Below are positions 6,895 through 58,864 of a stretch of DNA of 64,000 nt, one piece after another; positions within the stretch are counted from its first letter, which is position 1, and every line of letters begins with the position of its first letter. The translations under genes were made by a program, and so were the position numbers. The notes under the pieces were generated by a model. It did not search any database, was not told where the DNA came from, and was given only the letters and a program-made list of their open reading frames with translations. Source of the stretch: Eutreptiella sp. 'Long Island Sound 2002' (taxonomy: Eukaryota; Euglenozoa; Euglenophyceae; Eutreptiales; Eutreptiaceae); contig OZ038379.1 in the NCBI GenBank assembly GCA_964036045.1, positions 19,439,017 to 19,503,016 of the forward strand, in the 5' to 3' direction.

Positions 6895-9066
6895 TCACTC
6901 CATCTTGGAGTCGGCGGCCGCAGGGTCATCGAAGACACTGCCGGCGGTTGGGGTCGTGCTGCGCTCCGACGGGGCTGCGGGGGGCGTACAAATCTTCTTG
7001 ATGCCCGCCGGAGCCGGCAAGGGCCCGGGATCCAGCATGGACCCGGGGCGCTTGAGGCACTGGTAATTGTTCTGCGTGAGGGCGCTCTTGTTGGGCAGCA
7101 CAACCGCGGCGCCGCCGCCACCGTCGGGTCCTCGGGGCGGCTCGGGAAGCGGGGCCCGGTTCAGGCGCGAGGCGAGCTTCAGCAGCGACTCCAGCGGACG
7201 CGGGGGTGTGAAGGAGAAATCGACCTTCGCCTGCAAAGGGGAGGCAGCACGTCGGCATATTGCACAGAACTACAACCCATGCGCCCTGGCGTACCAAGTG
7301 CGGTAGGTGTAGTAGGGATAACAAGCATAGGGTCTGTATCAAACCTTTGGTGAATTTGTACCCGATCTGTGCTATGGGCAGAGTGGCCAAATCATACCTG
7401 TTGTACCAACCATATCTCGAGGTAAAATGCCACAGAGTAAGCATCGTAGGGTTAATGCAATAAGTGCAATAGCCATCACCAACAATATCCCACATGTGCA
7501 ACGCCCTCACCTGAGGGCCACTACAAGCCTGGACCCCATGATTACTGTCATCAGACATTGACATTGGCTGCCAACTGCCATATGTGTAAGATCAAATAAT
7601 TATTTCCACGTCATCACATTTTTTTGAAAATTCACCAGACCAGCCAAATGGATGGTATTGTTCATCAAGCGCGCCTCAACTGCTCTGGAGCAGCTCCATG
7701 TGCTCTGTGAGGGGGAAACCAACAGGGAAAAACGGGGAACTTGGGTGTCCCCTACCTTGAGTGAGGGCCCTCTGGGGGATGCTAGGTGCAAAGAGTGATG
7801 TGCCACACTTGTGTATGAATGTACCAAAGAAGCATCTTGTGACAGCACTGCATGTGGGGGCGCTAGCCGTGCAGATCCACAGCGTTCGTGTGCAGCATCC
7901 TGCTACAACCAGTCACGTGGTGGCAGAAGAATGGCGACCACAAGTTCAAGGCTGAACCGGTGGACAGCACGAGTGTGGGATTGGGTCTCAAGGAGTCGCC
8001 AACGTTGCTGCAGGTGCATAGCAGGATGCGCATGTGCGGATCCCCGTGGCGAAGCAGAGACGGATGGAAGATTGACGCCAGTGTTTTGTTGGGGATGGCA
8101 GCTTGGGCTGCAGCCTGATTACGAAATTACGAACACCTCCTTGTTGTGGCACTGTGGTGAACCGTTGGCATGCTGTTGTGCTTTGGCGACGGTGGGTACA
8201 GCAAGAACGGCTGCCCCCGTTGCAATGGACCGTAATCACAGTTGTAATCATGACCGTCATCGTGGTGCGGCGGGCTTTACCCACTCGCATACGCCATCGT
8301 CCCCCTTAAGGGGGGTGGGGACTGTCACCTGCTCCAAACATTGTGGACCGAAGAAAACGTGTTCCTGAGTGGCACTCGGTTATGCTGAAATTTCAGTGGG
8401 GGGGTGGACAAATGGGGTACCATCGACAGCCCTGGGGTCAGTATCGACTACATTGTTCTTTGGGTCCAGACCAAGATGAGCTGGCATAGCCTGCTCACTG
8501 TATGGCACTCGAGACAATCTCTCGGAATCAAGGTTCAGCCTTGAGCAACTGCATTGCAGTCGTTCACAAATCGGCGCCCTGTGGCATTCGGCCGAATTTC
8601 GGCAACACAAAGTCTTCGCACAGCACAGTACAGAAAGGCGCCCTCTGTATCGAGCCATTGCGTTCACCTGGTGTCAGCTGGTCCCACATGACCGAAAAGT
8701 GGGTGGAAAGCAAAGGGGGTTTGAGCTGCCTGATGCATGGGGGGCCAATGGTCGGGTTCTGATCGACTGAATGTCCCGGGCACAGCCACTTTCAGCCATG
8801 GGCCCAGGTGGTGCAGGGGCTGAGGGGGGAACAGGGGACGAGGGACACGGGGATGGCACCTGCGTGGCGAGTTTGATGTCATCAGCGGTGATCTCCGTGC
8901 GCCCTGCGTGCTCTGCGAACAGCACGGCCTCCGTGAGGATCTCGGCACACCACCGGTGCTTGAACTCCATCAGCTGCGCAACGACAGGAGTGTCGTAGGT
9001 GTCCACACCCATGCTCTGCAGGATTTCGTCGACAGAAGCCGCCTCTGTCGGACCTGGGGCCGTCAT
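6895..9066 (-). CDS. TAF9: TAF9, TFIID/SAGA histone-fold subunit (two exons)
   Basis: Model: exon 1 9066-8860 (69 codons, ATG to CAG, donor GTGCCA), intron 8859-7231 (1629 bp, GT-AG), exon 2 7230-6895 (111 codons plus TGA); total 180 residues. TAF9 pairs with TAF6 through its histone fold in TFIID and SAGA, in the nucleus. Exon 1 carries the whole histone fold: SVDEILQSMGVDTYDTPVV, then an alpha-2 helix with QLMEFKHRWCAEILTEA and finally RTEITADDIKLATQ, close to the family pattern DADDVRLAI. Exon 2 opens with the conserved post-fold block VDFSFTPPRPLESLLKLA and later has VLPNKSALTQNNYQCL, matching the L-P-x-x-x-x-x-L-T-x-x-N-Y segment of TAF9. The splice joins in phase 0 and the acceptor is CTTTGCAG. 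The C-terminal tail is short and Pro/Ala-rich. No other family fits both halves. Confidence 0.88.
7231..8859 (-). other. TAF9 intron
   Basis: GT-AG intron of 1629 bp separating the histone fold from the C-terminal block. It contains one copy of a dispersed repeat near 8455-8560 (landmark ACTCGAGACAATCTCTCGGA) that recurs at 35868 and, inverted, at 36650. Confidence 0.7.
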
Positions 9067-10189
9067 GACCGCACTGGCTACAGTCGCATGACAAATGGGT
9101 GACAGTGAAGCTGAGGGAGTGTGGATGGCGGGTGCGAGGCCTGAAAGCAGTCCTGTGCTTACAGATAGCAATGGCGGGGCTGCGCATAACGCAAACAGAA
9201 AAAATGTCCCAACGTGGTACACCCAGATCGGACCGGACGGAACCGACAACCCGACCCCAGCTGACCCCAACCGACCCAACCCTACCCGACCTGACCAGAC
9301 CCCACCCCACAAGACTAAAGTAGACCACACAGGACCGGAGGTACCGTTGGACATGCCAGAGTCCTGCAACTTGTACAGCAGGGCTTGGTTTTTTTTTTGA
9401 AGCTGATGCCCCCCTGCCCACAATGCTCAGGTGCTTTTTTTTTAATGGCACCGCATGCCCGTAGCTGATCGGACTTGGATGCTTATGTTGCAGGACCATG
9501 GGATCCGGTGGCTCTCGGCAGGTAGCAAGCGGTCCTTCCCTGATGGGGAGAAATTCTTGAAGTGGTCCCTGACACTCATTTGGTCAGGGGGACGGTACGC
9601 CACTTGGAATTTAGGCAACTAGGCAGTTGCTACCGTGCAATGACTCGGGTGGTGTCAGTCAGCACACAACCCCTAGGCGGGAGCTTTGCATGGCAGAAAC
9701 TATGACACCAAGGCTTCCATTCGAATCATGCTCAAACTGCGAGGTTCAACATTCCTACAGTCCTACATCGCTGCAATAACCATGAGTTCGTAGTTTATGT
9801 GTGGGCCTTGCAGTAGCCCCTAGCACACTGATTCACAGCTTCCTAACCATAGGAACAATACTCCATCCCTCCTGCATATGGACACACGGGTTTCATACGG
9901 CGGTTACGCCGGAGTCAGTGGGTCAATGAGGCTGACCCCCCAAAACTGGTCAAACCAGAGGCGGAGCAGAAACACTGCAACGAACAAACATACAAATACC
10001 TCAGAGGAGCCCCAAGCCGTGCATGTGCAGCTGTCATTCCTCGTGCCGAAACGAGTGCCAACGTGGGTGTTCGCGGAAACACCACAACGAACAAACCAGC
10101 CACACCCGTGCAGCAGGACCCAGGAATTGAAAAAAATAGTAACAAAGTGGCCGACGGGAGGGAGATTTCTATGGACTATGTCGCCATAC
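9067..10189. other. Upstream region of TAF9; no gene seen
   Basis: Holds a degenerate ACCCGACC-like pentamer run (9225-9310), two T-tracts (9390-9399 and 9436-9443), and a dispersed repeat at 9729-9790 with the landmark TCAAACTGCGAGGTTCAACA, shared with 49133. Promoter elements for TAF9 must lie here, but none is recognisable. Confidence 0.5.
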
Positions 10190-10833: not shown

Positions 10834-12783
10834 CTACGGCGTGCGACACGCTGTGCGCACCACCACAGATAACCTACCTGCTGCCTCCGCCTGGTCACGT
10901 AGGAACTGGCGCCGTCGGGGGTGTGCCAGCCGGCCCTGGTTAGCCAGCTCATCCGCCCGTTCGTTGCCCGCCACCCCGATATGACTATACACATGGCGCC
11001 ACAGGGTGGGGGCTACCCTCGCATCCACCTCTGCCTGAAGTTGGAGCCAAAGGTCAGAGTTCAGAAAAAGACGACCCTGCAACCTCCAACGCCGGAGGTG
11101 CTTCAGGATACCATCGTACACATACTTGCTGTCTGTCACGACCCGCAGTGCCTGTCCCCTCGGAACCACTCGGAGTGCTGCAATGCACGCGGATAACTCC
11201 GCCCTGTTTACAGTCTGCACCTCCCCTTCAAGGGGCTGCGCCATATTGCGGGGATCCAGCAGCCCAAACCAGACCCCGTACCCTGCGAAACCCGTTCGCG
11301 GGGCCTCTAGGCCAAAGGAGCCGTCAGTATACGCTTCTGGGACATGCAGGACATCCGGGTCCTCAGGCCCTTCGGCCGCCGCCCGGGCCCTCTTCCTGCT
11401 TACCCTGTCTACCGTCTGCCGCCGAAGATAGCGGTCTGGTTGCTGCGGGGAGGGGCACGGCCGCTTCTGACCTGCTACGTCTGAGCCCTCACACACCGGA
11501 ATATTCCTGTCCGCCAGCCACCCGTGCAAGGCCCCTGCATACATCCGTACCGCCTCATGATCTAGGGACAGGTCCAGCATCGCCAACCACTTCAACACCT
11601 CGGAGTGTAACACCCGCAGATAATCATTCACTGTCAGGCGGGCTTTCTGAAAGACCACCTCACAACGGCAGGACCACAAAACACGAACCGCCTTCCACAT
11701 CAGGATCCCCGGCGCCCTGGTTAGGGAAAGCTGGGGGTAATCAGAACACAAACGGCCCATTGGCACTCTACCACCTGAGCCCCAGACCAGCGGAAAGGTG
11801 CACTGCAGGGCCCGAACTGGGATGGTTGGCCAGGAACAAGCTTTAGTGCAACGGTAAACGTCCTCGAGAGAGGAATCGAAAGGGCACCAGTCTGATACGG
11901 AGGGCCAAATCGCCCAGAGGCGGGCCCCTACCGACAGTTTCTTCCAAAGGCAAGTATGGATGAAATTGAGGTCCTGAGGAGGTAGTACCAGGCGGCAAAA
12001 CGCCAGCCACACTTCTTTCGGCTGCCGCCTGTCAGCACGGCGTTGGGCCGCTAGCGCCGCCGATATCGGGGTGAACTGTAGACCCTGGTCCATGGGGAGG
12101 GGGGGGATGACCCCTTGCACAGAATTATGTCCCTCCCATGCGGGTACTAGCCGGCACACCAGAGCAAGCAGGGCCTGGTACTGGTGTGGCTGCAACTTCC
12201 TACTCCCCTGCCAGTCTCGGGAGACCGTGGCAACCCAGGCACTGGTGTCTACGACATCCGAGAGGCGTAGAACCCCTCGGCGAATCAGGAACTTGCAAGT
12301 AATAGATTTCTCCGAAACCGTTAGCAGGCGGCTATTCCACAGGGGGGCCGCCGCTAGTTCCTGCCAAGTCAGCCCCAGGCCCTTCTGGGCAGCATTCAGC
12401 GAGGACGGCGCCTTCACAGATGAGGCCAACCATGTCGCATTACGAATGCAACACGGGGACAACTGCAATAGGGCTAGCTGGGAGGGAGCATGCACTATGC
12501 CCTTACGTTCCAACCAGCCAGAAAAGACCACATAGGCGTCTAGACCATACCGAGACGGTTGCTGCAGATAACGTGTGAATGTCGCTGCATGCGTCGTCCA
12601 CAGGTACACCTCAGGCAACCACAAACCGACCCCTCCCTCAGACGGACTGAGATGCAGAACGTTCAGAGGCACCTTCCAATTCTGAGCATGGAAAGCCACC
12701 ACCAGGGCTCTACGAAGCCTTTTAACCACCACGTCAGGCGGTAGTGTGCAATGGCAGAAACCTGCAACACCGGATAGCACCAC
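10834..12783 (-). pseudogene. LINE RT thumb, connector and RNase H domain
   Basis: A long open frame continuing the RT thumb (PSEGGVGLWLPEVYLW). After a Trp/Cys-rich connector resembling the zf-RVT region, it ends in an RNase H domain whose four acidic catalytic residues are all visible: Asp in EAYTDGSFG, Glu in NRAELSACI, Asp in VTDSKYVYDG and Asp in GNERADELA. It terminates with TAG at 10834-10836. The RNase H half alone still looks intact. Confidence 0.85.
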
Positions 12784-13507
12784 GTGTGCAGGAGCACCAC
12801 CTTCTGTGCCCGTGACAGGGGCATTCGGGAGATCCTAGTACAGCGGGACTCAAACAACGCCACACACCGCTCATAGGCCACCGCCGGGGACACATGTCCC
12901 ACCTGGGCACCCAGGTAGCGCACATGGGGTACCACCTTAATACCCGCCAATCGGTCCCGATCTAGGCCCTGGAGAAGCAGGCGAGTCTTCTCCAAGTTCA
13001 AGCAGAGCCCTGTGTATTCACCAAAGGCTGCAGATTCGGCAAGCAATGCCTGTAGGTCGGCCTCAAGAACAGCACCCGGCCGGCGCAGCCGAACCAGGGC
13101 ATCGTCAGAGTAAAGCCAGATGTCGACCCCATAGGGCAGCAGTATGAAACAAATAAAAGAAGTGAGTAGAGAGAATAATATAGGGGACAACAGGTCCCCT
13201 TGGCGTATGCCCGACGCCGGGGTCAGGGAATGTTCCCTCACAACCCCCCCCGTCACCAGAAACAGAACTGGGCCTCGCAAGATCTGCAGCAAGACACGTA
13301 TCCAGGGGGTCGGGATACAAATGAAGCAAAAAAGCACTGCCATCATGGGATGGCTGACCGAGTCATACGCTTTACTGTAATCTACCACTAACCAAGCCGC
13401 CACTTCATCCCCTGGGCCCGTGTGCCAGGTTTGTTGCACCGAGGCCAAGTGGTCGAACATCGTACGGCCCCTCAGGTAGGCCTTTTGTTGGGTACACCCC
13501 TCTCCCC
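12663..13507 (-). pseudogene. Reverse transcriptase domain of the LINE
   Basis: Encodes about 280 residues of RT: a first catalytic block AAWLVVDYSKAYDSV, the template-primer block GIRQGDLLSPILFSL, the active site LYSDDALV (Y-S-D-D in place of the usual Y-[AV]-D-D) and the following GLCLNLEKTRLL. The N-terminal part and endonuclease are absent. The frame leaves the RT thumb near 12720, where the continuation is found in the next frame (10834-12783), so one indel separates the two. Confidence 0.85.
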
Positions 13508-31623: not shown

Positions 31624-34519
31624 CTATCGAATTACCAGCACGTGTGGCTCACCCTTTGGGGACGTTCCTCCGAGGGCCATCCCGGACAAAACAACAAACA
31701 GGCTGCCCGCGAGCGCAACGCGTGGGAGATACGGCAGCGCAGGCGAACCTTCGTTCTTGCCGCCGGGCGGGCCGCTGCGCGTCCGGGGCAGTTCCTCGTC
31801 CGGGGCCTGGCCCTGCGCCTGGCCTCGGCCACCACCGGAGGCGTCCGTGCCAAAGCGGTGCGCGCGCGGGAGGGTCTTGCTGGGGCTGAGGCTGCCGAGC
31901 GCGTACGACGCGCGCCGCACCTGCGGCTTCCTCGGCGGCAGCTCGGCCTTCGGATTCTCGCGGCTGCTGTTCGAACTCAGCCGCGGCTGCGGGCCTCTCG
32001 GGGAGGCCTCGCGCTGCGCGCGCGCAGCCGCCTGCGCCGCGGGCGAGTCCGGCAGCGAGTTCCGGCGCGGGGCCATGGGAGAGGGCTCGTCGGCGTCGGA
32101 CATCCGGAATGACTCGAGCGCGAGGGCGAACTCGCCCCCGGACCCCTGGCGCCCGAGTGTTGAGGGCTGCCACGACACCGCGCCGGAGTGCTGGCGCTGG
32201 AAGGAGAGCGTGCGACTCGGGGAGCTGTCGGGCGGCACCGGCAGAGGCGCACGGACGGGGCCGATCGGGGACTCCAAGGCCTGCCCGGAGCCCCGCCGGC
32301 CCTGGTGAGGGGGGTGCGCAGTGCTGCCGCTCCCGTCGCCGGTGCTGGGCGACGACGCGCTGCCGGGCACTGCGGGGGCCAGGCCCAGCAGCGAGTCCAG
32401 CACCACGAGGGACGAGGCGTCCAGCGCACTGGGGACGGGATTCCGGCGCAGCGTCCCCGGGTTCGCGGGCCGGACGGTGGACGGGGTCGCGGTCTCGGGC
32501 AGCGCGAGGATACGCGTGGGCTTCGCGGGCGGCGCCGGCACGAGGGCCGGCCTGTCCGGCACCGCCTCGGGTCTGGAGGCGGCGTCCGGCGTCGGGGCCG
32601 GCGGGGGTCCCGCGGGCTCACGCGGCGAGTCCTGCGGCGGGGCCTTCCGGGCCAGTTTGCGCGGCGACAGTTGCTGCGGCAGACTGCGGCCGGTCGTGGC
32701 CATGAAGAGCCGCGTGGCCGCCGTGATCCGGTGGAAGGGTCCCGGGGGGTCCGAGGGCTCGGAGCTGGTGTCGGTGGCGGTGTCGGAGCTCTCGTCGGTG
32801 GAAAAGGTCGAAGTTGAGGACGGGGTGGCGCAGGGCATGTTGAGGGCGGCGTCCGCGACGTTGGGGAGGTCGCCGGCGCGGGGCGGCACGACGGCGTGCC
32901 GCCAAATGCGGACCTCAATGTCCTGCCGCAGGTCCGAGTCCTCGTCGTCCAGTTGGGCTTGGGTGATGGCCAGGGACCCAAGACGCACAAACGACTCCAA
33001 GCCGAAGCCAACAGCGGTCACCTGCGGCCGTGAGGGGTGTGCAGGTGCAGATGCGGGATGGCGGGGCCGTTCAGTCGGTTACAACCGACCAGTGAGCCCC
33101 CTACTGCCCACCCCGACTACAGATGAGGGGGACAGCACAACGATGTCCTCATTTTGGGGGTCTTCAAATGGTCGGCAGGGCTGAGCTGGATGTCCCCGCC
33201 ATAGACACTTCCAGCCATTCTTTATTGCAGGTTGGCCGGGTCACTGCACTCGTGCTTAGACAAGCCCGTGCTTGCGCGGAGTGCGTGGTACCAAAAGAAT
33301 ATGGCTAAGTTGTTGCACCGCGTGCGTACTGCTTGCACCTGCTGGGGAACTCACCCAAGATCACCTGCCCCGTGTCTCATAGCACGGCAAAGCAGCAGAG
33401 CTCAAAAGATAACAACATCCCTGCTTTCAAATTGGTACTCCAATGTACCTATGAACAAAGGAATGCGGCACACAACAGGCCATGCAAAAAAGACCATGAC
33501 CATGACCACCCACAACTAGCACGGGTCCAGACTGAGCACTGCAGCACCTCGGGATGAGAGAGCCACCCAGCACCACACTGACCCACACGATGCACACAAG
33601 CCCTGTGCATGCTCCACAGGTCATGGAAAGGGCTCCACAGCCATAAGCTTGGCACATGGTGATATTGTGGTCCCACAACAGGATGGCTGTGATGTACAAC
33701 ACCCACACAGTACCAGCAGGGACAGGGATCACCAGCGGAAAGGAAACAAATAGAGAGGCCCGTTGGTGCAAACCAACAACGTCCAGGTGTCGGTCGTGCG
33801 CCTTCAAACGACCCCTGGGGATGCCATGGGACTTTCATTTTGGCATGTTCCCGGGTCACAGGCGGGGGAAAATGCACGTATACACAGCCACAGCCATCGC
33901 GGTGTAATGAGCTGACAAAAGAAAACTTCTGCATGGTGTGCAATGACTGGGGAGGGGTGGGGGGGGGGGGGGGGGACCAGGGGGCTGGACAGATGGCCGA
34001 CATCCGCTTCATTGTCCCCTATAATGTGCAACTGATGGAGAAGTGGGGCACGGGGGATTCCCTTCAGTTGGCCAACAGCCCGAATCTCCTGTCGACACGT
34101 TCACAGCCAAAGGCAACGGAAGTGGCGTGTGAGAGGCTCACCTGCAGCCACAGCTCCAACATCAAGGACGGCTGCACTGTGCCCTTAAATCTGTTGTACT
34201 CCACAAGGGGGACGCGGATGTCTTGGGCAACGCCACGCTTCAGGCGTCGGATGGGGATCAGGCAGATGCCGTACCGTGTTGTGTCCCGCTTGTCCCGCAA
34301 CGTCACCTCCAGGTAGTCGCAGTCGAAGACGTCAAAGCGGAGGTGGTCCTCTGCTTGTTGACTCCGGGGCATCGGGTAACTCTGCTGGCCCAAGGTGAAG
34401 GTGATGCATCGCTGGTCCCATGGGATGTTCTGCAAGTCCAACACGGCGACGACCAACTGCCGACAACCGCTCAGGCTCTTGGACTGACTCATGGCTGGTG
34501 TGCCAAAGGGTGTCGACAT
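31624..34519 (-). CDS. C2-domain protein with Pro/Ser-rich tail and C-terminal membrane segment (two exons)
   Basis: Exon 1 34519-34142 (126 codons, donor CAG|GTGAGC), intron 34141-33022 (1120 bp), exon 2 33021-31624 (465 codons plus TAG); phase 0 join, 591 residues. Exon 1 is a C2-type beta sandwich: LVVAVLDLQNIPWD, LRFDVFDCDYLEVTLRD, a GICLIPIRRL strand and a final LELWLQ strand that runs across the splice into VTAVGFG. C2 domains bind membranes or partners, often with calcium; only some of the loop aspartates are present, so calcium binding is uncertain. Exon 2 is long, Ser/Pro/Arg-rich and probably disordered. Near the C-terminus a hydrophobic run VALAGSLFVVLSGMALG could be a tail anchor. 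An internal ATG nine codons in is an alternative start. Confidence 0.6.
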
Positions 34520-34877
34520 TCAGACAACTGTACTGCAGGGCATGGAGGCCAATGGTGGCAGACACACGGAAGTGGAAGGACAAAGGTGGCGAAATTTTAC
34601 AGCAATGCAATTTGGAGGCTTGGCCCTGTAGACATCTTCGTGCATGCTTAGTCGCCCTTGCCTCCAGAGATCACACAAACACACATCCTGCCCATTGGGG
34701 CCCTTTCTGAGAGGGCTTTTGGTGTAGTCATGTCAGCTTTTGGTGACACCTGCTAAGCGGCCTGCCCCGGCATTTTGAGGAGTAAGTTGTACAATTAACG
34801 CTTGGTCAGAAAGTACAAGATCTGCGACTGACAGCAGGTGAGGGTCTTTGCAACCACAGATGGCACCCAGATAGCTA

Positions 34878-35600
34878 GGGGGAATCCTTGCACTGCGCAT
34901 GCACTGCGCGCTACTTTTAGACTATGTCCCCCCTGAAGAGCCCCTAGGCACGCCCCTTGGAAACACCCTTAGAATTAGGCGACCCAAACTGGACTGGAGG
35001 GGACCTTGAGGGGGACCTTCCTGGTTCTTGTGGCATGGTGAAGGACCAGGGGCCTTTGGGGGGGAACTTGACTGTGTGTTGGGCAGCGGAGATGGAGGGC
35101 AATCAGGTGGCAAGTCTGAACTTGGGGTGGCAAAGGAGATGGACTCCATCTTGCATTGCCGATTCACCACTCTCAACCCATCTTGGTAGTATTCCAAGTG
35201 GAGGAGTCCGTCTTCAGCTGTCCCAACCACCATGGCAGGAGGTCGCAGGCCATTGGAGCAGGTGTAGAACACCCTATCCCCAATACTGAGATCCATGGAG
35301 AAAATGGGCCTGAGAAATGAGGAGGGAAGTATGATGTCCTGTAGCAGGCACCCTCAAAGTGTATCACCATATCAATCAACTGAGAAAAAGAGTAGATGTG
35401 GTGGAAATGGGCAAAAAATGTGTGCAAAAAAGTAGAAATGGGTGAAACAGGGTGAACATCCAAAAAGGCCAGATCCCCAATGCATCAAAACCTACTACCA
35501 AACAACAATGATGCCCAAAGATTCACAAAGTATGGGTTTCTACTACGGCCAGACGCCCAAATAGTTGCACTGCGCGCGCACTGCGCTTAAGGCGCCCCCC
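34878..35600 (-). mobile_element. TIR element E2 carrying a barrel-domain ORF
   Basis: Left end GGGGGAATCCTTGCACTGCG with CATGCACTGCGCGCTACTTTT. The right end, read on the minus strand, is GGGGGGCGCCTTAAGCGCAG with GTGCAACTATTT. The ends are imperfect inverted repeats and are flanked by TA on both sides (34876-34877 and 35601-35602). The 723-bp element contains one minus-strand ORF. Confidence 0.6.
34922..35296 (-). CDS. Small barrel-like (SH3/Tudor-type?) domain protein of element E2
   Basis: 124 codons from ATG at 35296. The first 50 residues form a beta-rich domain, GDRVFYTCSNG, then PPAMVV and LLHLEYYQDGLRVV. The remainder is Pro/Ser-rich. The same pattern (V-[YF]-Y-x-x-S-N-G, then A-x-V-V, then L-x-Y-x-x-x-G) recurs in elements at 40269-41053 and 38642-39189. 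Function is unknown; a nucleic-acid- or chromatin-binding barrel is one possibility. Confidence 0.5.
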   Translation of the reverse strand: MDLSIGDRVFYTCSNGLRPPAMVVGTAEDGLLHLEYYQDGLRVVNRQCKMESISFATPSSDLPPDCPPSPLPNTQSSSPPKAPGPSPCHKNQEGPPQGPLQSSLGRLILRVFPRGVPRGSSGGT

Positions 35601-37146
35601 TAAACAGAGCCTGTCCACACCAGAACGCAGACATGTTACCACTGTGACCGGGTCCAAAAAATCCACAAACTGGAGCACAGAAGCGGCGCAAATTGGACCC
35701 CAACGTGGGGAGGGGGGAGGGGGGTGGGGGTGCCACAAAGGCTGGCGGTTTAAACGTGTAAAACAACCACCAACCAGTACCATGTGCTTTGTACTCCTCA
35801 TCAACCCTCTTGAACGGCGGTCGGCTGTGCTGGAAAATTTTTTTGTTGTTTTTTATGGTCCCGACCAAGATGAGCTGGCGTACCCTGCTCATCATATGGT
35901 ACTCGAGACAATCTCTCGGAATCAAGATTCAGAGCTGTCCAGTGCTACGACTATGATCCCACATAATGTACACATGATCCCACATACAGACTGTAGTTGC
36001 GGATCTGACACGTAGTGAGGATTAGCTGAGTCTGAAACCAGGTTATGCAGTAGGCCACACCCGTAGGCTTCCCAGTGTGCATGGCCGTGCCGGAAATTTT
36101 CCTCTCATCCCCAAGGGAACATGGGCCTCAGTGAGGGTTCCCTTGCTATCCATCACTTGTAACAACCCATGCTAACACTATGTCTTGCATGCACCGCATT
36201 GAGTACATTCGGGAGGAGGACTATCCAAACCAAAGCCCGGGGCGTAACGGGTGCACAGTGCGCGCACGGTGGGCGCCTTTTTGGGCAATTACACAGCTTT
36301 CACCCCCCAAATGGACCCTCACAGACAGGCCCCAGAAAGCAAGTCCCCAAAGCTTGGGGCCCTGGTGGAGTGACGGACCACAGTTCCGGCGGGGATTGTT
36401 TCGAGGGTGCTGAAATCACACCGCGTGCATCAAAGAAGCTAACATGTTCGTGTAACGTGCACCCTTTTTTGAAGGTAGTGGCTCACTGACCCCGAATCAG
36501 TGTGTGCTACCAAATCTTCACACCGCTGTCTTCTTCAGCCTACAGTCATTGTGCCTCATGCACACTGAGAAGCCTACGGGCGTGGCAGTCTCCCACTGCA
36601 TACCCTGGTTTCAGACTCAGCTAATCATCACTATGCGTCAGACCCGCTACCACAGCCATTGTGGGATCATCGTAGCGCTGGACAGCTCTGAACCTTGATT
36701 CCCAGAGGTTATCTTGAGTACTGTAAAGTGAGCAGGCTCTGATGTTTGCTGCGTAAACATGGGTTTCGTGTTACCATGTGTGCGCACCGGACTGACGCAA
36801 CTCACACCGCACACAGTGCGTGGGCGGCACCCTCTCTGGGTGCTTGTTGTGATGTGAGGCCACCCAACAGCGTTTCCACGTAACCACCTGGGGGCTGCAA
36901 CCCAAGCAAAGACTTTGGTACTTTCTAGCTGTCCACCAAATCTACCCTGCAAAACACACCACAGTATAGCAGCACCAGTGAACAATATGATAATTTATTG
37001 GGATTGCAAGACAATACTATGGTCGTGAGATGCGAAAAATATGTGATCGGAGAGATCAGAACCAGGGACAGATAGCAGTCCAAACCCAACAGCAGAGCAA
37101 TGCAAAGCACAAGACAATAATCTGATACAAGGACGCAGGCATCTCC
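35601..37146. other. Repeat-rich stretch, no supported gene
   Basis: Holds two copies of the ACTCGAGACAATCTCTCGGA repeat, direct at 35868-35965 and inverted at about 36650-36750. A solo inverted transposon end (GCACAGTGCGCGCACGGTGG ... CACCCCCC, to 36308) is also present. A minus-strand stretch near 35740-35830 reads FKRVDEEYKAHGTGWWLFY but has no context. Confidence 0.45.
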
Positions 37147-38289
37147 ATGTCATGTTCTCGAGGGAGGAGAGGAAAGGGAGAGAGGCTGACAAAACACATT
37201 GTCGTACCAAGCACATGCCATATTGGTTTTCCTGATACCGGGCACACCCTGAAACTGAGGGCATGTATGCCAGAGCTGGTATGTACAGCCAGCCCTATGG
37301 GGGGTACAGCACAACAAACAGTCCCCACCATGCGAGCAGAGCTGTACATTGGTGTACCTGATGATCCTGTGCCAGATGTGTCAGGATGTGAAGGGGAGCA
37401 ATCAAAGCATCATGCGCTCAAGTGCCCGGAAACAACATGCAGATCAAAGTTCAATTTGCATGCCAGGCCTGCTTTCAGCTGTTCGAGCGAAACCGAAACT
37501 GCAAACTTGCAACTGGCAGAAAACCGAACTTGGTAAGTAAGGCCCCAACGTGAGACCACCCCTTCCGGTGCGATGTTACATCCATCTCAGGGTGTAAACA
37601 CACAGAGGGGTGTGGGTGTGGTACGGGGAGCCACAAGGCGCCGATAACCACAGCATAATCCGTGGGTGTCCTGAGAGAATACGGACAGAGCCACAGGGAC
37701 AACATGAACAGCAGAGCGCCACAAGATACGGGATTGGTGACGGTGAGACACAGTGTCAAACGGTGCCCTCCATCATCAGAGAGAGGCAGAACAAGGCCTT
37801 GGACCTACTACCAGGTAAGTGCCTGCACAAAAGCCACCCCCACAGCCGTGCTATACTTACCAAAACTCGTAACGATGGGGCACTCGCCGGTGCCGGTGGT
37901 CTCTGCCACACAAAGTGGTTTCTTTTTGTCGTCAAACACAGCAGCGCCCAATGTTGTGCATGGAGAATGCAAGGCAGGAAGGTGGCATGACCAGGAGGCA
38001 AACAAACTGAGGTCTGTTGAGCGTTGTGCCAGGGCCTGCAGACATCTGCACCACATGCCTGCCGGCAGACTTCACCCGCTTCCTGGGACTGACGGCCCAC
38101 AGCATGTCTGCTCAGCTCACACTGATGGGGGGCGATAGGAGTACTTGTGCCGCACACACACCGTTTGTTCCGGAACGGCTGGATATACTTCCCACCGCCC
38201 CATGCCTGCCACCAGCTGCCCTGATAGTTGCGCCGCGTACTCCTCCCATAGAACACTCTCCATGCTCGGACGTGACGGCCACACTGCAG
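37147..38289 (+). CDS. Probable multi-exon Cys-rich protein, 3'-incomplete model
   Basis: Exon candidates 37147-37532, 37654-37814 and 38042-38289. Donors are TTG|GTAAGT, CAG|GTAAGT and CAG|GTAATG; acceptors are AACCACAG| and GGGCCTGCAG|. Phases match at both joins (2+1 nt, then 1+2 nt) and give 265 codons without a stop. The product is Cys-rich in its first half (GCEGEQ, KCPETTC, FSCSS, TCIIRGCPE), suggesting a secreted or luminal domain, and later reads CLPADFTRFLGLTAH and ERLDILPTAPCLPP. An alternative acceptor for exon 2 (37638) would use another frame of exon 1. No family recognised; the 3' end is not identified because a transposon follows. Confidence 0.4.
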
Positions 38290-38641
38290 GTAATGCCCAC
38301 GAACGCTAATGGAGGAACGGTTGTCCGCTGTGCAAACGCACAACCGCCTGCCCGCGACCACAAGGAGACCATGTACGCCCACACTCTTATCTGTGCAAGT
38401 GCAGCAACGTGTTTCGCTGTTTGAGGGGGGATTCAGAGGTGTTCGGCCGGCAGGGGAGCATTGCGTGCGTGCTTGTTGTGCATGTCGGGAGAAGCCGGAT
38501 GTGACGCTGCTGCAGAAAGGGGGCATTTCCACGGTTGCGTACCCCGCCCGCGCCTCCCTGCGCAGGCCCCGCTAGGGACACTGAAATATGCAGAACATGA
38601 CGCCTTTACCACCGAGTAGCGCTTGCACGATACCCAAGGTA

Positions 38642-39189
38642 CCCCCCCCCCCCCTGCGCATGCACGGCCTTGTCTAAGCACGGGGTGGGCCCCGTTTGGG
38701 GCCGCTGTTTTTGTGGTCCAGAATGGAGGATTGGGTGTTTGTAGAGTGTTTGTATAGGGAAAGAGGGGCTCAGTCATGTTTGTGATAGTGCATTGTGTTC
38801 ATAACAACGCTGTACCACACATTGCAACCCCATGCTGTCTGTTCTGGTGTGATTTTCAGCCATGGCTAACAATGCTATTCCCGGCATGGCTGGCATGTAC
38901 GTTCAGAGCACTGGGGAACATTTTTTGGTCCCTCTCGTCATGGAGACAATTACATCCATTTGAAGTACATGCGGAATGGGAAGGAGATTGAGCACAATGC
39001 CGCTTTTGATAAAGTGCTCTTCCCCATTTGCAGCCCCTCGCCATCCCCATCTGAGGGCTCCCCCACATGTTTGCTGTCACGTGTGTCGCATGCATGCACG
39101 GCCTTGTCTAAGCACAGGGTGGGCGTTGAACCGCCATTTTGACCTGACTTTTGGGAACGCGGCCGTGCTTGCGCAGGGGGGGGGGGGGG
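38642..39189. mobile_element. TIR element E4 with homopolymer ends
   Basis: Left terminus is 13 C then TGCGCATGCACGGCC. The right terminus is its inverse, GGCCGTGCTTGCGCA then 14 G: about 28 bp of inverted repeat with one mismatch outside the run. The left subterminal block CACGGCCTTGTCTAAGCAC is repeated directly at about 39097. A barrel-like reading frame lies inside on the plus strand. Confidence 0.6.
38862..39142 (+). pseudogene. Barrel-like domain of element E4, split by a frame change
   Basis: Frame one gives GMAGMYVQSTGEHFLVPLVM from ATG 38862. The continuation is one frame over, GDNYIHLKYMRNGKEIEHNA, up to a stop at 39142. Together they follow the E2/E3 domain position by position (Y-x-x-S-[NT]-G, then V-M, then I-x-L-x-Y-x-x-x-G). 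The frame change near 38940 suggests decay. Confidence 0.45.
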
Positions 39190-40268
39190 AGAGGAATGTG
39201 CAACAGCGTCCACGCGTTGGGCATCTGGAGTGCGGAAGGAAAGCATTTTAAGGAACATAGATCTTGGGCTTGGAGATGTCTCATCCCACCGATGCATCCC
39301 TGTTGGGTGCTGCAGCAGGGCACTTCCAGTGCCGACAGGGCTAGAGGCTCCGGTGCTGACCTTGTTTATGTTTGCGCATGGGGAGTGCGGTCACTTGCAC
39401 CCCCTCTTGTCGCCTTGCACCTTTGCAAGCACAAGGGAGACAAAACTGGGACAACTCAGCATTGCACTCAATCCCTTCCCTTGCCTCCCCTCCCGATCCT
39501 TTCTGCAACTCACGGCAGCGGTCCCCCCAGGCTGCTGCACCTTGAATGCAGCCTCCCGCATATGGGATCCCAAGAGAATGTGCCGTGTGTCGTCTGGGTG
39601 GCGCAATAGCACAGACATGTCCTCTGTAGTGACATGCGTTGGGGGTTGTACATGCATGGTCTCCCCTCCGGAGCGGGCAGTCTCCAGTCAACCACTGTAA
39701 CGGGCTGCAGTATGGCTCTCGCGGACAGCAGTGAATTGGTGATGGTGTAACACAGACTGCAACAGTCTGTGACGGACTGTAAGGAAGTGTAGCTGACTGC
39801 AAGGGTATGTGCGGACTGAGAGGAGTGCCATTCCAGCTCAGAAGCCATCGACCCCTGCCCATCCAACCCCGTTTGAAATCATTGACTCCAATGTTCCAAA
39901 ACGGGCCTTTTCAGCGCCTGGCGTCGCTTGCACCGGGGTGGTGCATGTGCAAACGCGGAGGGGGGGTTATGTAGGAAGGAAAAAAGGAAGCAGGCATATT
40001 AAGGAGGGCAGCCATTGGTGTAATCCCTGGCACAGTGCCCCAGTGTCGCGTCCTGCATCACTTTTGTCCCCGTAACCTCCGGCATTGCTTCGCCATGGAA
40101 GTATGCGAGGGGTCACCTTCATCAAGTCACCTGCACGTACGGACTCATAGCTTTCCAGCAGAGCAATCGGGGGTTTAACCATGGAGGTCAAGGGAAATGG
40201 ACCGGACAACACATCCAGCATCCCCTTCATCCTTTTTCTTGTCCAACACAGCGACTCGGAGTCCCAAA
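39190..40268. other. No supported gene
   Basis: Unremarkable mixed sequence. Open frames on both strands overlap each other without a domain or splice support. Confidence 0.45.
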
Positions 40269-41053
40269 GGGGGCGTTGTCGCACGGTGCGCGCACGGTGC
40301 GTGCACGGTGCGTGCACGGTTCAATGTTTTTGGGATGGTTGCCCAACTTGTACCCCGTTGAATGGCCCCCATAGAAACACACCCAGGGTCCTGATTTCTG
40401 CACCTTGCAGTCCATACTGGCATACCAGGATTCTTCAATTTTTAGTCTGATGCTTGTCACAGGTTCCAGGGTCCTATTTTCTGCACCCTGCAGCCCCTAT
40501 TGGCGTACCGGGAACTTTTTTTTTTTGAAGCTGATGCTTGTCACAGGTTCCAGGCTCCCAATTTCTGCACCTTGCACGCACCTCCGTAACAAACCATGCA
40601 CAGGCGACAACACAAGCGACAACACTGGTTGGTTACGGGAATTTCAATTTCATCCGCCACAGCATTCTGGCTCATGATCATCAATTCTAGGGGCTTCAGC
40701 TTCCACTTCAGGTAATTGGGGCTCCAGCAAAGTGTCCATCGGCGCCTCATGGTGCATAGGTTGGGGGGAATCGGGGCTCTCAGTAGTCACAATTGCAAAC
40801 TCCAACCGCTCCTCGGGTGCATGCTCGTACAAGACCTCTTCACCACCCAATTCGTACCTAATAGAGACGCAACTCCCACCTCTTGGAGAAGGGTCAACGA
40901 CAGTGGCCGACACCCTATCCCCGTTGGAGCGGTGGTAGTACACAAGCAGTCCGGCGACAAGCTAGGGCAGCTCAGATTCAGGCATTGTGGATCTGGTGGA
41001 CACAGAATACGCAAAAGGACGCACAGTGCGCGCACGGTTCAGGCAACACCCCC
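40269..41053 (-). mobile_element. TIR element E3 carrying a barrel-domain ORF
   Basis: Left end GGGGGCGTTGTCGCACGGTG followed by CGCGCACGGTGCG. Right end on the minus strand is GGGGGTGTTGCCTGAACCGT followed by GCGCGCACTGTGCG. AAA flanks both ends (40266-40268 and 41054-41056), a possible 3-bp target duplication. The 785-bp interior has a threefold ~85-bp tandem repeat (about 40382-40575, landmark TGATGCTTGTCACAGGTTCC) and a minus-strand ORF. Confidence 0.65.
40650..40967 (-). CDS. Small barrel-like domain protein of element E3
   Basis: The open frame begins after a TAG and reads VAGLLVYYHRSNGDRVSATV, then CVSIRYELGGEEVLYEHA and EERLEF, followed by an acidic Pro/Glu-rich tail ending in ECCGG. 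There is no ATG at the front, so the N-terminus is missing or read from an upstream exon. The domain matches E2 and E4. Function unknown. Confidence 0.45.
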
Positions 41054-43814
41054 AAAGAGCGCAGTATATGTGGGGCAAGGCAGTCCTGTGCAAAGCGCGC
41101 CGTGGTTGGCATGCCCCAACAAGAAAGCCGAGGGACTTCAGACGGCTGATGCTGAGCAAAACAGCATGTGGGCTTCTCGCTGCTGTGCACTAGAGGCCTG
41201 ATTGCCACTCCAGCCTGCGTCAGGTGGATTCGGATGGGCTCAGGCTTTCCTGGTCCACTTGTTCCTTGGGCCTCATGTTTCCAGCAACCCGGGCTGGGAA
41301 CCTTGCCAAGCCAATGTGCCAAATACATGCAACTGTCGCATCACAAGCTGACGGGGGGGGGGGGGGGAGCGCCACGTGCACGCCACGCACACTGTTGGAG
41401 GTGGCTATCCCTGGGAACGGCCAGATCCGTCCCCCCTTTCATTTCTGGTTCTTTGTCCACGCAACACGTTGTTCCAGTGCGTATCCGCGTGTGCGTGCAC
41501 ATGGCAGTTCAATGGTGATGACAGGCCCTTGGTGGAGGGTTGGGAAGGTGGTCCTAGGACCGAGGCCACAACCTGATCTTCTGCCGGTAGCCCCAGCACG
41601 CACGGCAAGTGCTCCCTCGCTGTACCACACTGCGCATTGGCACACTGACGATGACGATGAGTGGGAAGGTTCCGCGTTTCCAGCATCTGTTTGTGCCCCA
41701 TCCCCTTAGAACACTTCCACCTTCACGTGTGGTCACCTTCTTTTTTTTTGTCGGGCCCGCGCTGAGTAGCGATAAGGCTCTCGGGTTCACAACCCGGTCT
41801 CTGCATCAGTGCTGCAGGGCGCAGTACAGTCACCCGATACATCGTGTGGCCGAAAGGCAAACCTGGATCTGTGCCTGCAGAGAATACTAATGCATGGTAG
41901 TGCTTCCACCTTCACGTGTGGTCACCTTCTCCGACCAGTTGCATTACAGACGCGTGGGTGCACTCACTCCGCTGGCTGCTTTTGAAAAAGCAGCCTCATT
42001 GGATGCGCTGCACTTCGTATTAGTGTCCCTCAGTCACACAGACAGGGGGAAGGGGGAGGGAGGGGGGGACGCGCCCTGGATCCGTGGATGAAAGCGAAGG
42101 GGTTCCGGTGGCAATAGCACCGCAAGCACAAAAAGGATCCTGTGAAGAGATGCATAAAAAGCTGAGAAGCCCTAGCGCTGTGCCCGACTCGGACCCATTC
42201 CAATGACCGGTGTGAGCTGAGAAGGTAGGAGGAAACAGACTGCTGGTGCGTAATGGTCAGCGGCTGGTGGCTCCCTGACAGCAGCTGTCAGGAACCCACG
42301 GCAATTGGCAAACGACTGTTGTCAGTCCGTTGGCAACCCTTTCTTTTGCTCAGGCTCAGAGGAGCCTCACCCGCTCAACTTTCCGGCGAAAGCTCGGACG
42401 CCATGGACACCACAGCAGTTCCACCCTACCGCATCCAGGTTAGTGTTGATGCCCACTGCTCGTCATGTCCTGGGTTGTTGCATGTACATGGTACCGCCAC
42501 GGCTCACGTACGTGTACGGCTTGAGCCATCGTGCCATTCTTGGTTCTGTCAGACTTGAGATTTATTATCAGCAACTTGATTTGTTTGCACATTCTTACTG
42601 AGAAACCATAGAGACATCTTCTTTGTTGGATTTCCGCTGATCTGCAAGTTCAACCCGACGAGAGGGGAGCAGAGTCATGGCAAAGCCATGATGATCTGAC
42701 TAGCTGGTCTGGAAGGAGTGCTGGACAAGAGTCTCCAAATTCCGAACAGAGGTGGAAACAACCACCAGCATATGCCTAAAAAGGCCGGAACAACATGCAA
42801 AGCATGCGCCAAACATCCACCAAGCACTAAGACACAATTGACACTCCGCCTGTTACAGTCTGCAGTCTTCATCACTAAACACTTTCACGCCCACTGTCTC
42901 AGTCAGTACCAAGCCTGCTGTCCGTGTCCACAATATTCGGTCCTGCTCCTGCGCAGGCCTCTTGCACTCTGTCTATCTGTCTGTCACTGGCTTGCTGTGG
43001 TACCCCAGCTGTTTTATGGCATTGCACGTCCATGCGTGTTTTCCCATTCCTACAATGAGTTGATGAGTTGCGCATCTTTCAACTCCCTCACCTTCTCACG
43101 ACTGAGAAACCATAGACACATCCTGCCCAGCCAGAAATGTTGTTTTTTGGTTTCATGACCCAAGTCAATCCGTCAATGCAGTGTGCTCACTCTGAAGTCA
43201 TGATGCCCCAGATATCAAATCGCCGCAGAAATGTGTACCTGAAGCACGTGCAGCAGGCGCATGCCTGGGCGACAGCACCCTGTCATCCAAGATCCCGGCA
43301 AAACCAAGGAGGAAGAATGCGGACCAGGTTGGCTTTCGCCTGCCACCAGTCACGAAAGACGCCGACAGGCTTTGGGGGGGACATGGCTCTTCTGTCCAGA
43401 ACATCCAAGAGCACAATTGATGAACCCCAAGCGCATGCACCTGGCCACTGACTCACCACTCAGCGTCAGCACCGCCGTCAGTCAGCTGGCAACTGCTGGT
43501 CCAGAGGAATGCGCTTTTAGGAAGTTAGGCAAGAAAAGACGAAGACAGAAAGTGCAAGTGGGAAGCACGTGCCCGAGAGAGGGAGAGACAAAGCTGATAG
43601 ATATGGTACTGGCGGTCCCAACGGCGGTTGGCGGCCACCCGGGGATGGTTGGTGGCCAGTGCCTGGCGATGAAGCGACGACACACGGCTCCGACGGAGCA
43701 CACAGGAATGGGGCCAGACTTGCGTGCAAGAATTCCGATTTGTTTGCTGTATGGCACTCGTGAAAGGGGTACTTGGACACAACAGGCAACACCACATGGC
43801 CGCCACCCACCAAC
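41054..43814. other. Mostly non-coding stretch with one exon candidate
   Basis: G-run at 41355-41370. A tRNA-like hairpin near 41765-41800 was considered and set aside. Apart from the short exon candidate at 42403 no coding segment is supported. Confidence 0.4.
42403..42438 (+). CDS. Possible first coding exon (12 codons)
   Basis: A pyrimidine-rich acceptor CCTTTCTTTTGCTCAG at about 42341-42356 is followed 46 bp later by ATG at 42403. The frame runs MDTTAVPPYRIQ to a donor CAG|GTTAGT at 42439. This is the expected layout of a euglenid 5' end, a spliced-leader acceptor just before the start codon. The next exon could not be placed; the nearest acceptors give early stops. Confidence 0.3.
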
Positions 43815-57223: not shown

Positions 57224-57934
57224 CTACCCCCCAGGCACCGCTGGCTTCACCCATTGAGCCACTAGGAATGCCCCTGTCAGGGATTGCTGCGCGTCCCGTT
57301 CGATTTGGGGGACCGCCTCGACCTCCTCATCCTTCGAGAAGTGCACGCACGTCCGCAGGTCGCATGGCAGCTGCGGCACCAAGGCTCGCATATCGGCCGG
57401 CGACCGCAAAATGACGTCGCGGAACAGCGGGTGGCCGCGCGCGCCCGCCGCCCGCCGCCGTTGGGCCCACCACAAGCTTTGGCTGTTGAGCGTTGCGACC
57501 GTGACAGTGCCGCCGGGCTTGGCGACACGCAGCAGCTCCGCGACGGCCGTCGGGGCGTCCCGTACGAACTCAATGGCTGTGACGGACACGCACTTGTCGA
57601 ACGCGTTGTCGGGAAAGGGCAGGCACCGCATGTCGCCCACGACGGCACGAAAGGCCAACCCTGTCATCCGCTGCCGGGCCCTTTCGAGCATTTGTCGCGA
57701 CACATCCAGTCCGACGACGTTCGAGCCACGCCGCACGTAATCGAGGGTGAAGATCCCAGTGCCGCACCCGGCGTCGAGCAGGGTGTCGCCGTGTGTGGGC
57801 CGCAGCATGTCCAAGAGCAGCTGCTGTTCGTACTTGAATATCAGGCCCCCAATGGGCGTCCGAAACCATTGGTCGTACTCCTCCGTCCAGCCATCGAAGA
57901 GGGCCTGCGGGTCTTGCTGGATTGCAGTGGCCAT
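57224..57934 (-). CDS. Class I SAM-dependent methyltransferase (Methyltransf_11 type), intronless
   Basis: 236 residues from ATG at 57934. A short N-terminal block FDGWTEEYDQWFRTPIGG precedes the Rossmann fold. Motif I is LLDAGCGTGIFT, the acidic end of strand 2 is VVGLDVS, motif II/III is VVGDMRCLPFPDNAFDKCVS and the next strand is VAELLRVAKPGGTVTVATLN. These bind S-adenosylmethionine; the methyl acceptor cannot be told from sequence (UbiE/COQ5-like small-molecule enzymes share this shape). The frame is open upstream to 58078, giving an ATG at 57994 as an alternative start. There is no intron and the FDGW..EYDxWF..P.G opening is typical of bacterial homologues, so a bacterial origin is plausible. 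GC-rich codon use matches other host genes here, so if transferred it is well ameliorated. Confidence 0.85.
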   Translation of the reverse strand: MATAIQQDPQALFDGWTEEYDQWFRTPIGGLIFKYEQQLLLDMLRPTHGDTLLDAGCGTGIFTLDYVRRGSNVVGLDVSRQMLERARQRMTGLAFRAVVGDMRCLPFPDNAFDKCVSVTAIEFVRDAPTAVAELLRVAKPGGTVTVATLNSQSLWWAQRRRAAGARGHPLFRDVILRSPADMRALVPQLPCDLRTCVHFSKDEEVEAVPQIERDAQQSLTGAFLVAQWVKPAVPGG

Positions 57935-58864
57935 ACGACAGCATTTCCACGACCACCCTCGTGATGCCGCGCGCCCCACGCGGCGGGGTATCATGCCGAA
58001 GCTGGCGTACACGCACATCCACACAGGGCGAGACCACAGGCACAAGCGGCAGGTACGTGTATGATGTCGCTGCAGCAAGAAACGAATGGCAACACCCTCT
58101 GGTGAGCACTGTACTCAAAAGAGGGGGGTACTTGCACCGCGTGCGCCTTTCGGACTCCTCTGGTGAGTTTCAACTACGCATGAAGGCCACTGTGATGTGC
58201 CCCATCGAGGGAAGAGCATGCCCAGAGCATCGATCTTTGCCCCCCCCCCCCCCAACTCCGCCGCCCCCGTGCCAGGAACAGTGTCTGCCATGGGCCTCGC
58301 ACTGTGGTTCTGTGACTAAGGATTGATTGCGCGTTAGCTCTGCTGCGGACCCCCCACTGTGGCCCACAGCAGACGCCCTTTAATGGAGTTACGCCGCCAC
58401 ACAACTGGGGGGACACTGGCAAGCGCACGCCCCCCCCCAAGCCGCTGTGTCACCACTCGGCGGAGGACGTATGTCAGGCATGGTCTCCACAAGGGAGGGC
58501 GGTGAGACACCACTGGGGACCGGAAGGTGCGAGCGAGGGGGCTGGCAGCTTTGGGCCGACAATGCACACCCCTTCACTGAGGGGTTTACCCTCACCTCTG
58601 CATCGAGATGGTCTGCTCAGGAATCTGAGGGACCCCACTGCCCTTGAACATACACACCAGATTCTATTCCACAAGCATCAAATCACTGCCACAGGCCTTT
58701 ACTTCCGGTCCTCTTGTGCAATCACCTACTCTTCTCACTAATCTCTGTGCTGGACCCCATACTCGCCCCTGGGGGAGGGTGTGCCGGGCGCACGCTCAGT
58801 GCCTGCCCCACGCAGTCCGTTTGAGGAAATGACTTCGGCCCTTTGATCCGCCCCCGTACAGTAG
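57935..58864. other. Upstream region of the methyltransferase; no gene seen
   Basis: C-run at 58240-58252 and otherwise unremarkable sequence. Confidence 0.4.

Follow-up and report, generated by a model that had tools for sequence, protein, structure and literature searches.

A Tudor-like domain shared by three short mobile elements of Eutreptiella, one of them probably derived by internal deletion from a transposon of the Harbinger type

Three short elements with a common coding module

We describe three short elements, named E2, E3 and E4, that lie within 6.2 kb of a 64,000-nucleotide stretch of the genome of Eutreptiella sp. 'Long Island Sound 2002' (the window; contig OZ038379.1 of assembly GCA_964036045.1, G000:C2:19439017-19503016 in our coordinates) and that share a reading frame, partly damaged, for one Tudor-like domain. 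Two longer transposons with the ends of E3 carry this frame together with a frame for a DDE_Tnp_4 transposase. Taken together, our data make it probable that E3 is a Harbinger-type miniature inverted-repeat transposable element (MITE) with a Tudor-like module, mobilised in trans, that E2 stems from a related parent and E4 from another type of transposon, and that the domain binds chromatin or DNA in the long element and is a passenger in the short ones.

A DNA search of the whole assembly (2.28 Gb, 2205 contigs) gave 3834 first-look candidates for E2, 1424 for E3 and 2913 for E4, which are not to be equated with confirmed copies, and 40 of each family were scored. All of these extended to 35 bp or less from either end of the query, apart from two E4 matches that start at base 54, and were 94-100% (E2), 96-100% (E3) and 87-100% (E4) identical to the query; smaller separate pieces were listed alongside these near-full-length copies. 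For detailed comparison we used 21 E2 copies (that of the window and 20 of the 22 matches next in rank), 13 E3 copies (12 of the 39 others were picked for alignment at both ends) and the 30 best of the 40 E4 copies, including that of the window, of which 26 had ends that could be parsed for the frame test and 28 for the target-site test. These samples were ranked or end-selected rather than random, and the target-site rates and constraint tests given below are valid for these copies. In the copies examined in detail the termini fell on identical bases; the coordinates that the initial annotation had given for the three elements were correct to within one base, and the many dispersed copies with the same ends that it had named as supporting evidence are represented by the 40 scored per family. 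E3 is the youngest of the families, with 0.1-1.0% divergence from the majority sequence, compared with 1.7-3.6% for E2 and 2.0-3.8% for E4 (14 copies from an earlier partial alignment). All three are short, are dispersed in many copies with matching borders and contain no transposase frame, as is characteristic of MITEs.

Target sites and termini point to at least two element types

E2 is a non-autonomous element of 722 bp (34878..35599) with the ends GGGGGAATCC and GGCGCCCCC, and is flanked by the direct repeat CTA (34875..34877 and 35600..35602). E3 comprises 785 bp (40269..41053) between GGGGGCGTTG and CAACACCCCC and is flanked by AAA (40266..40268 and 41054..41056). Both begin with GGGGG and finish with CCCCC. 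Perfect 3-bp direct repeats were found around 16 of the 21 E2 copies and 11 of the 13 E3 copies, when shuffled flanks yielded 1.54 and 1.49, respectively, and no copy of either had a 4-bp repeat. These repeats are the 3-bp target site duplications (TSDs) of E2 and E3. The initial proposal that all three are mobile elements with exact ends holds true.

E4 (38642..39189) is a 548-bp shortened copy of a family of about 580 bp and has the opposite polarity, with a C-run followed by TGCGCA at the left and TGCGCA followed by a G-run at the right; a leading G-run is a property of E2 and E3 but not of E4, which corrects the initial annotation, in which all three had the same kind of ends. Of the 28 E4 copies that were parsed (of 30), 19 had TA at both borders, with a shuffle mean of 19.9, and the window copy had it on the left only, while a 3-bp repeat was seen in 1 of the 28. 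Because TA is nearly invariant here, the shuffle cannot separate a TA duplication from element sequence. When the ends were compared after trimming of the C- or G-runs, with 500 dinucleotide shuffles per end pair, 0, 2, 16 and 20 shuffles reached the observed similarity in the four E2-E3 pairs, which suggests a weak rather than a strong likeness, and 60 to 265 did so in the eight pairs of E4 with E2 or E3. We consider E4 a different kind of element, since its polarity is opposite, TA takes the place of the 3-bp duplication and its trimmed ends are no closer to those of E2 or E3 than shuffles are. The three elements, initially annotated as a single family, therefore represent at least two element types that share the domain.

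Some relatives of E2 and E4 have another interior. At positions 8826-9402 of locus L062, the outer parts are 85-88% identical to E4, no domain is recognisable and the coding part is replaced or shortened; at 2786-3300 of locus L057, the outer parts match at 71-76%, in pieces, and the coding part is likewise replaced or shortened. Both depart from E4 within or after the domain, and a peptide, GKGFYSTA, follows the junction in both. Such a pattern could reflect separate deletions within a longer element that has coding sequence, as well as an exchange of the interior. An E2 relative at about 2620-3360 of locus L006 has similar ends and TTA on both sides (by eye), but its interior is rearranged and no Tudor-like frame could be recognised in it. 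In the window, 28 nucleotides outside the E4 copy (33251-33278, minus strand) are 93% identical to positions 481-508 of the E4 consensus, the GCATGCACGGCCTTGTC segment.

The frames encode one Tudor-like barrel domain

According to the initial annotation each element carries a frame for the domain, which is fully so for E2 and in part for the others. In E2 the frame (34922..35296, minus strand) is open and has 124 codons, of which the first 58 or so encode the domain and the rest a Ser/Pro-rich tail. The E3 frame (40650..40961, minus strand) has 103 codons after a TAG at 40962-40964; counted from the nearest ATG (40983-40985) this TAG is codon 8, and it is present in 9 of the 13 copies, that of the window included, the other 4 having TGG. 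In E4 the frame (38862..39139, plus strand) is broken, 13 nt of the family's 97-codon frame being absent, and is continued by a second frame that is open from 38870; among the 25 other parsed members, 16 have the 97-codon frame without stop or gap (insertions not counted).

Pairwise identity of the domain between families is just 25-36%, and of 2000 shuffles 0 (E2-E3), 3 (E2-E4) and 17 (E3-E4) reached the observed score, so that the E3-E4 alignment would be weak by itself and homology rests on profiles. Against a background of 7465 frames from 287 kb, a profile built from the other two families found the best member of E3 at E=2.9e-9, of E4 at 9e-9 and of E2 at 8.9e-6. The joint structure model (pLDDT 85.6) is an SH3-like beta barrel of four strands plus a two-residue fifth, and its best structural matches are the Tudor domains of TDRD3, PHF1 and PHF20 and the PWWP domain of Shuguo. 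The proposal that the three frames are homologous and encode one barrel-like domain is thus upheld. Tyr11 is invariant and Tyr36 occurs in six of eight aligned domain sequences, as counted by eye; they might contribute to an aromatic cage for methylated residues.

Pfam gave no Tudor match for the domain, with SH3_12 appearing only at E 0.14 in one of eight members, and sequence searches of Pfam and the PDB returned no relative. Among viral contigs, a single-sequence scan produced one locus (L001), a phage portal-type frame by eye, matched partly through the peptide ESISFATP, which we rejected as chance, and a profile scan gave 54 pattern matches with no relative of the domain among them. The domain profile found no further carrier in ten other 10-kb stretches of the genome (100 kb, L060-L069; best E 2.9). 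The presence of three domain copies within 6.2 kb, as first described, is real, but with none in these ten stretches it looks like local chance.

Long relatives of E3 combine the domain with a DDE transposase

A protein search of the genome with the E3 domain gave 3511 candidates, of which 150 were scored, all at least 92% identical. We fetched four loci with unusually long frames, and three of them proved to be E3-type short elements with extended frames, two lacking about 47 bp of the E3 interior. In the fourth, both outer parts match E3 and 1.2 kb of other sequence lies between them. This copy, here C2 (G000:C2:8824077-8826025), has 1949 bp, runs from GGGGGCGTTG to CAACATCCCC and has the TSD CCA; a frame in its insert matches DDE_Tnp_4 (PF13359) with E 3.1e-8 and 33.8 bits (cut-off 24.8). 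A genome-wide search with the DDE segment of C2 gave 8869 first-look candidates, and the 150 scored were 61-100% identical, many of them in long open frames. From two tied best other matches we chose one for its frame of 654 codons. The corresponding element, C17 (G000:C17:8025002-8027972), has 2971 bp, E3-type ends and the TSD TTG, and its 654-codon frame matches DDE_Tnp_4 with E 1.4e-9 and 38.2 bits (same cut-off; 634 residues scanned). By eye, the DDE triad of this frame would lie in VAVD, LHDGAYKG and VEHLF, and a B-box-like stretch at its end scores under the cut-off. A 263-codon open frame that starts from the left end of C17 holds MPESELPW...VYYHRSNGDRVSATVVG and overlaps the 654-codon frame.

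The outer parts of the E3 consensus are 95-98% identical to the two long relatives (one repeat-offset piece 81%), and the middle of these is absent from E3. Because long elements share the ends and the Tudor-like frame and in addition carry a DDE_Tnp_4 frame, we conclude that E3 is an internally deleted transposon of the PIF/Harbinger type, to which the 3-bp TSD also corresponds; E2 shares this TSD length. One of two earlier suggestions, that the domain belongs to the element's own protein, is supported for E3 by these two elements. C2 lacks about 1.1 kb that is present in C17, and C17 about 0.2 kb that is present in C2, so that neither can be taken as complete. Both contain the Tudor-like frame, which, as both are close to E3, does not indicate how common it is. 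No Myb/SANT-like Pfam match was obtained in the 634 scanned residues of the C17 frame (L087); the 263-residue frame was not scanned whole. Inside E3, a tandem repeat whose copies are offset by about 83 bp (40383-40576; 111 nt, 81% identical) is present also in C2.

Origin of the short elements

In the reading that we prefer, the 5' coding part of the parent transposon specified a Tudor-like domain with an SH3 barrel and, behind it, an acidic/proline-rich linker, and the short copies retain the Tudor-like frame because the deletion took only the middle, which holds the transposase. As the ends, the TSDs and the shared outer parts suggest, transposase from longer copies would cut and paste the short copies in trans, giving rise to 3-bp target duplications. 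E2, which has a divergent Tudor-like frame of its own, most likely arose likewise from a related transposon, and this parent was probably of the same transposon type as that of E3, since the ends and the target length are the same. E4, with its TA target and C-run ends, may come from another transposon type with the same domain. For neither E2 nor E4 was a parent found, nor for E4 any longer relative, though linkage of E2 to DDE_Tnp_4 was not tested and no search by transposase was aimed at E4. To judge from its fold, the Tudor-like domain of the long element may bind either DNA or chromatin, in the latter case through a methylated histone or some other nuclear protein, and so help to place or tether the transposase complex, whereas in the short copies its frame would now be a passenger.

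A captured host module, the second of the earlier suggestions, would mean that each short element, in the manner of Pack-TYPE transposons, independently took up and spread a host first exon with a Tudor-like domain and a splice acceptor. The same module does occur in three elements of at least two types, and the relatives in L062, L057 and L006 combine the same outer parts with a different interior. Furthermore, the CCATGG start of E2 and E4 is closely preceded by a pyrimidine- or T-rich stretch that ends in CAG, as would be expected of a splice or trans-splice acceptor (CTCAG 13 nt upstream of the ATG in E2, TTTCAG 2 nt upstream in E4), and E3 has CAG 7 nt upstream of its ATG. Nevertheless, the E3 module sits beside a transposase frame in longer transposons with the same ends, and we found no host gene with the domain, although the search could hardly have revealed one, as every one of the 150 candidates scored, out of 3511, was E3-like. 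On balance we regard gene capture as unlikely.

The frames themselves bear on whether the short elements express and depend on a small Tudor-like protein of their own, which might for instance help or repress the long element. When the families were compared, the identity at codon positions 1, 2 and 3 was 0.46, 0.56 and 0.34 for E2-E3, 0.40, 0.55 and 0.33 for E2-E4, and 0.43, 0.58 and 0.43 for E3-E4. Second positions are thus conserved (55-58%) and third positions (33-43%) near saturation, in agreement with the earlier proposal that selection had at some time acted on the domain. This deep conservation, the start context and acceptor-like sites, and the frames uninterrupted by stops or gaps in 13 of 21 E2 and 16 of 26 E4 copies would all accord with a functional small protein. 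Among copies the picture is different. E2 shows 48 synonymous, 119 nonsynonymous and 10 stop changes, when 51.3, 122.0 and 5.1 were expected from the rates outside the frame, which matches neutral expectation with twice the expected stops. E4 shows 56, 148 and 5 changes versus 82.6, 199.3 and 3.6 expected, a lower total with much the same ratio of synonymous to nonsynonymous changes. Protein-level constraint is therefore absent among copies within both families, in contrast to the dN/dS below 1 that had been named as supporting evidence. Since E2 and E4 are unconstrained and 9 of 13 copies of E3, the youngest family, share an early stop codon, the short elements seem able to do without a protein of their own; we judge such dependence rather improbable, do not see them as protein-driven units, and place the past selection on something other than these short copies.

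A reading of the elements as nonconventional euglenid introns, or as intron-like insertions, is very improbable. The ends of such introns can pair, and they have been proposed to be of MITE-like origin (PMC4770533, PMC11170887), but the consensus given there (CCAGG at +3 to +7, CCTG at -9 to -6) is not present at these ends, E2 and E3 are flanked by duplications of a fixed 3 bp, and relatives of E3 bear a transposase frame. A resemblance of GC-rich frames by mere chance, for which one might cite the low pairwise identities and the shuffles that reached the observed scores, has a practically negligible probability in the face of leave-one-out E-values of 8.9e-6 to 2.9e-9 and a confident joint model.

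Relation to known mobile elements

PIF/Harbinger DNA transposons and the MITEs derived from them are well known. They have G-rich termini and short non-autonomous derivatives, as does the E3 lineage, and a second gene for a Myb/SANT-like protein. The long relatives of E3 resemble this superfamily, which belongs with IS5 and ISL2EU to the PHIS group, in their DDE_Tnp_4 transposase and differ from it in that their coding region has a Tudor-like domain on its 5' side. The 3-bp duplication agrees with the TSD range described for PHIS elements (PMC10045372). With MITEs and Pack-TYPE elements as described in PMC8903248, the short elements have in common a small size, high copy number, terminal inverted repeats, the absence of transposase and a coding-derived interior; unlike that of Pack-TYPE elements, the coding interior of E3 derives from the parent transposon and not from a host gene. 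As the E3 case indicates, gene capture is not required for the origin of coding MITEs that resemble gene carriers.

Among mobile elements, it is mainly retrotransposons that are known to have chromatin-reader domains. Chromoviruses are chromodomain-bearing retrotransposons whose domain is thought to steer insertion. They resemble the E3 lineage in having a Royal-family-type barrel in a transposon protein and differ in element class and in the position of the domain; in the E3 lineage such steering is putative. Chromodomain-bearing retrotransposons are also named in a 2025 account of Gypsy-10_Ec32 from the brown alga Ectocarpus, to its authors' knowledge the first reported transposable element with a Tudor domain (PMC12477816). 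As there described, Gypsy-10_Ec32 shares with the E3 lineage a Tudor-type reader domain within the element's own coding region, but it is an LTR retrotransposon whose Tudor domain is C-terminal, whereas the E3 lineage belongs to the cut-and-paste DNA transposons and has the module on the 5' side. Judged by their titles, none of the papers listed by our full-text literature search, the scope of which excluded most subscription journals and Repbase, dealt with a Harbinger transposon that bears a Tudor domain or with such a Euglena element, and the Ectocarpus paper was the only one listed for Harbinger and Tudor that dealt with proteins of transposable elements; a deposited entry is possible.

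We suggest, as a tentative extension that we would not yet favour, that a Tudor-like chromatin-reader module is common to several unrelated cut-and-paste types (PIF/Harbinger-like and TA-target), was exchanged between them and serves to choose or survive in particular chromatin, its remains having been multiplied into thousands of coding MITEs. If a group of Tudor-like DNA transposons with module-keeping derivatives exists, it would allow a direct test of chromatin targeting by cut-and-paste elements, and this transposon group offers thousands of candidate transposase fragments.

Other features of the window

Between E2 and E4 lies a large foldback structure (35884-36736) with three inverted arm pairs (67, 64 and 30 nt; 84-93% complementary), the centre of which holds a GTGCACAGTGCGCGCACGG stretch that resembles the ends of E3. 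At 10837-13460 (minus strand), an RNase H match (PF00075, E 2.1e-24) adjoins a reverse transcriptase frame (PF00078, E 2.8e-13), marking a retroelement, and a methyltransferase-domain frame (PF08241, E 5.4e-24) at 57227-58078 (minus strand) is possibly a host gene.

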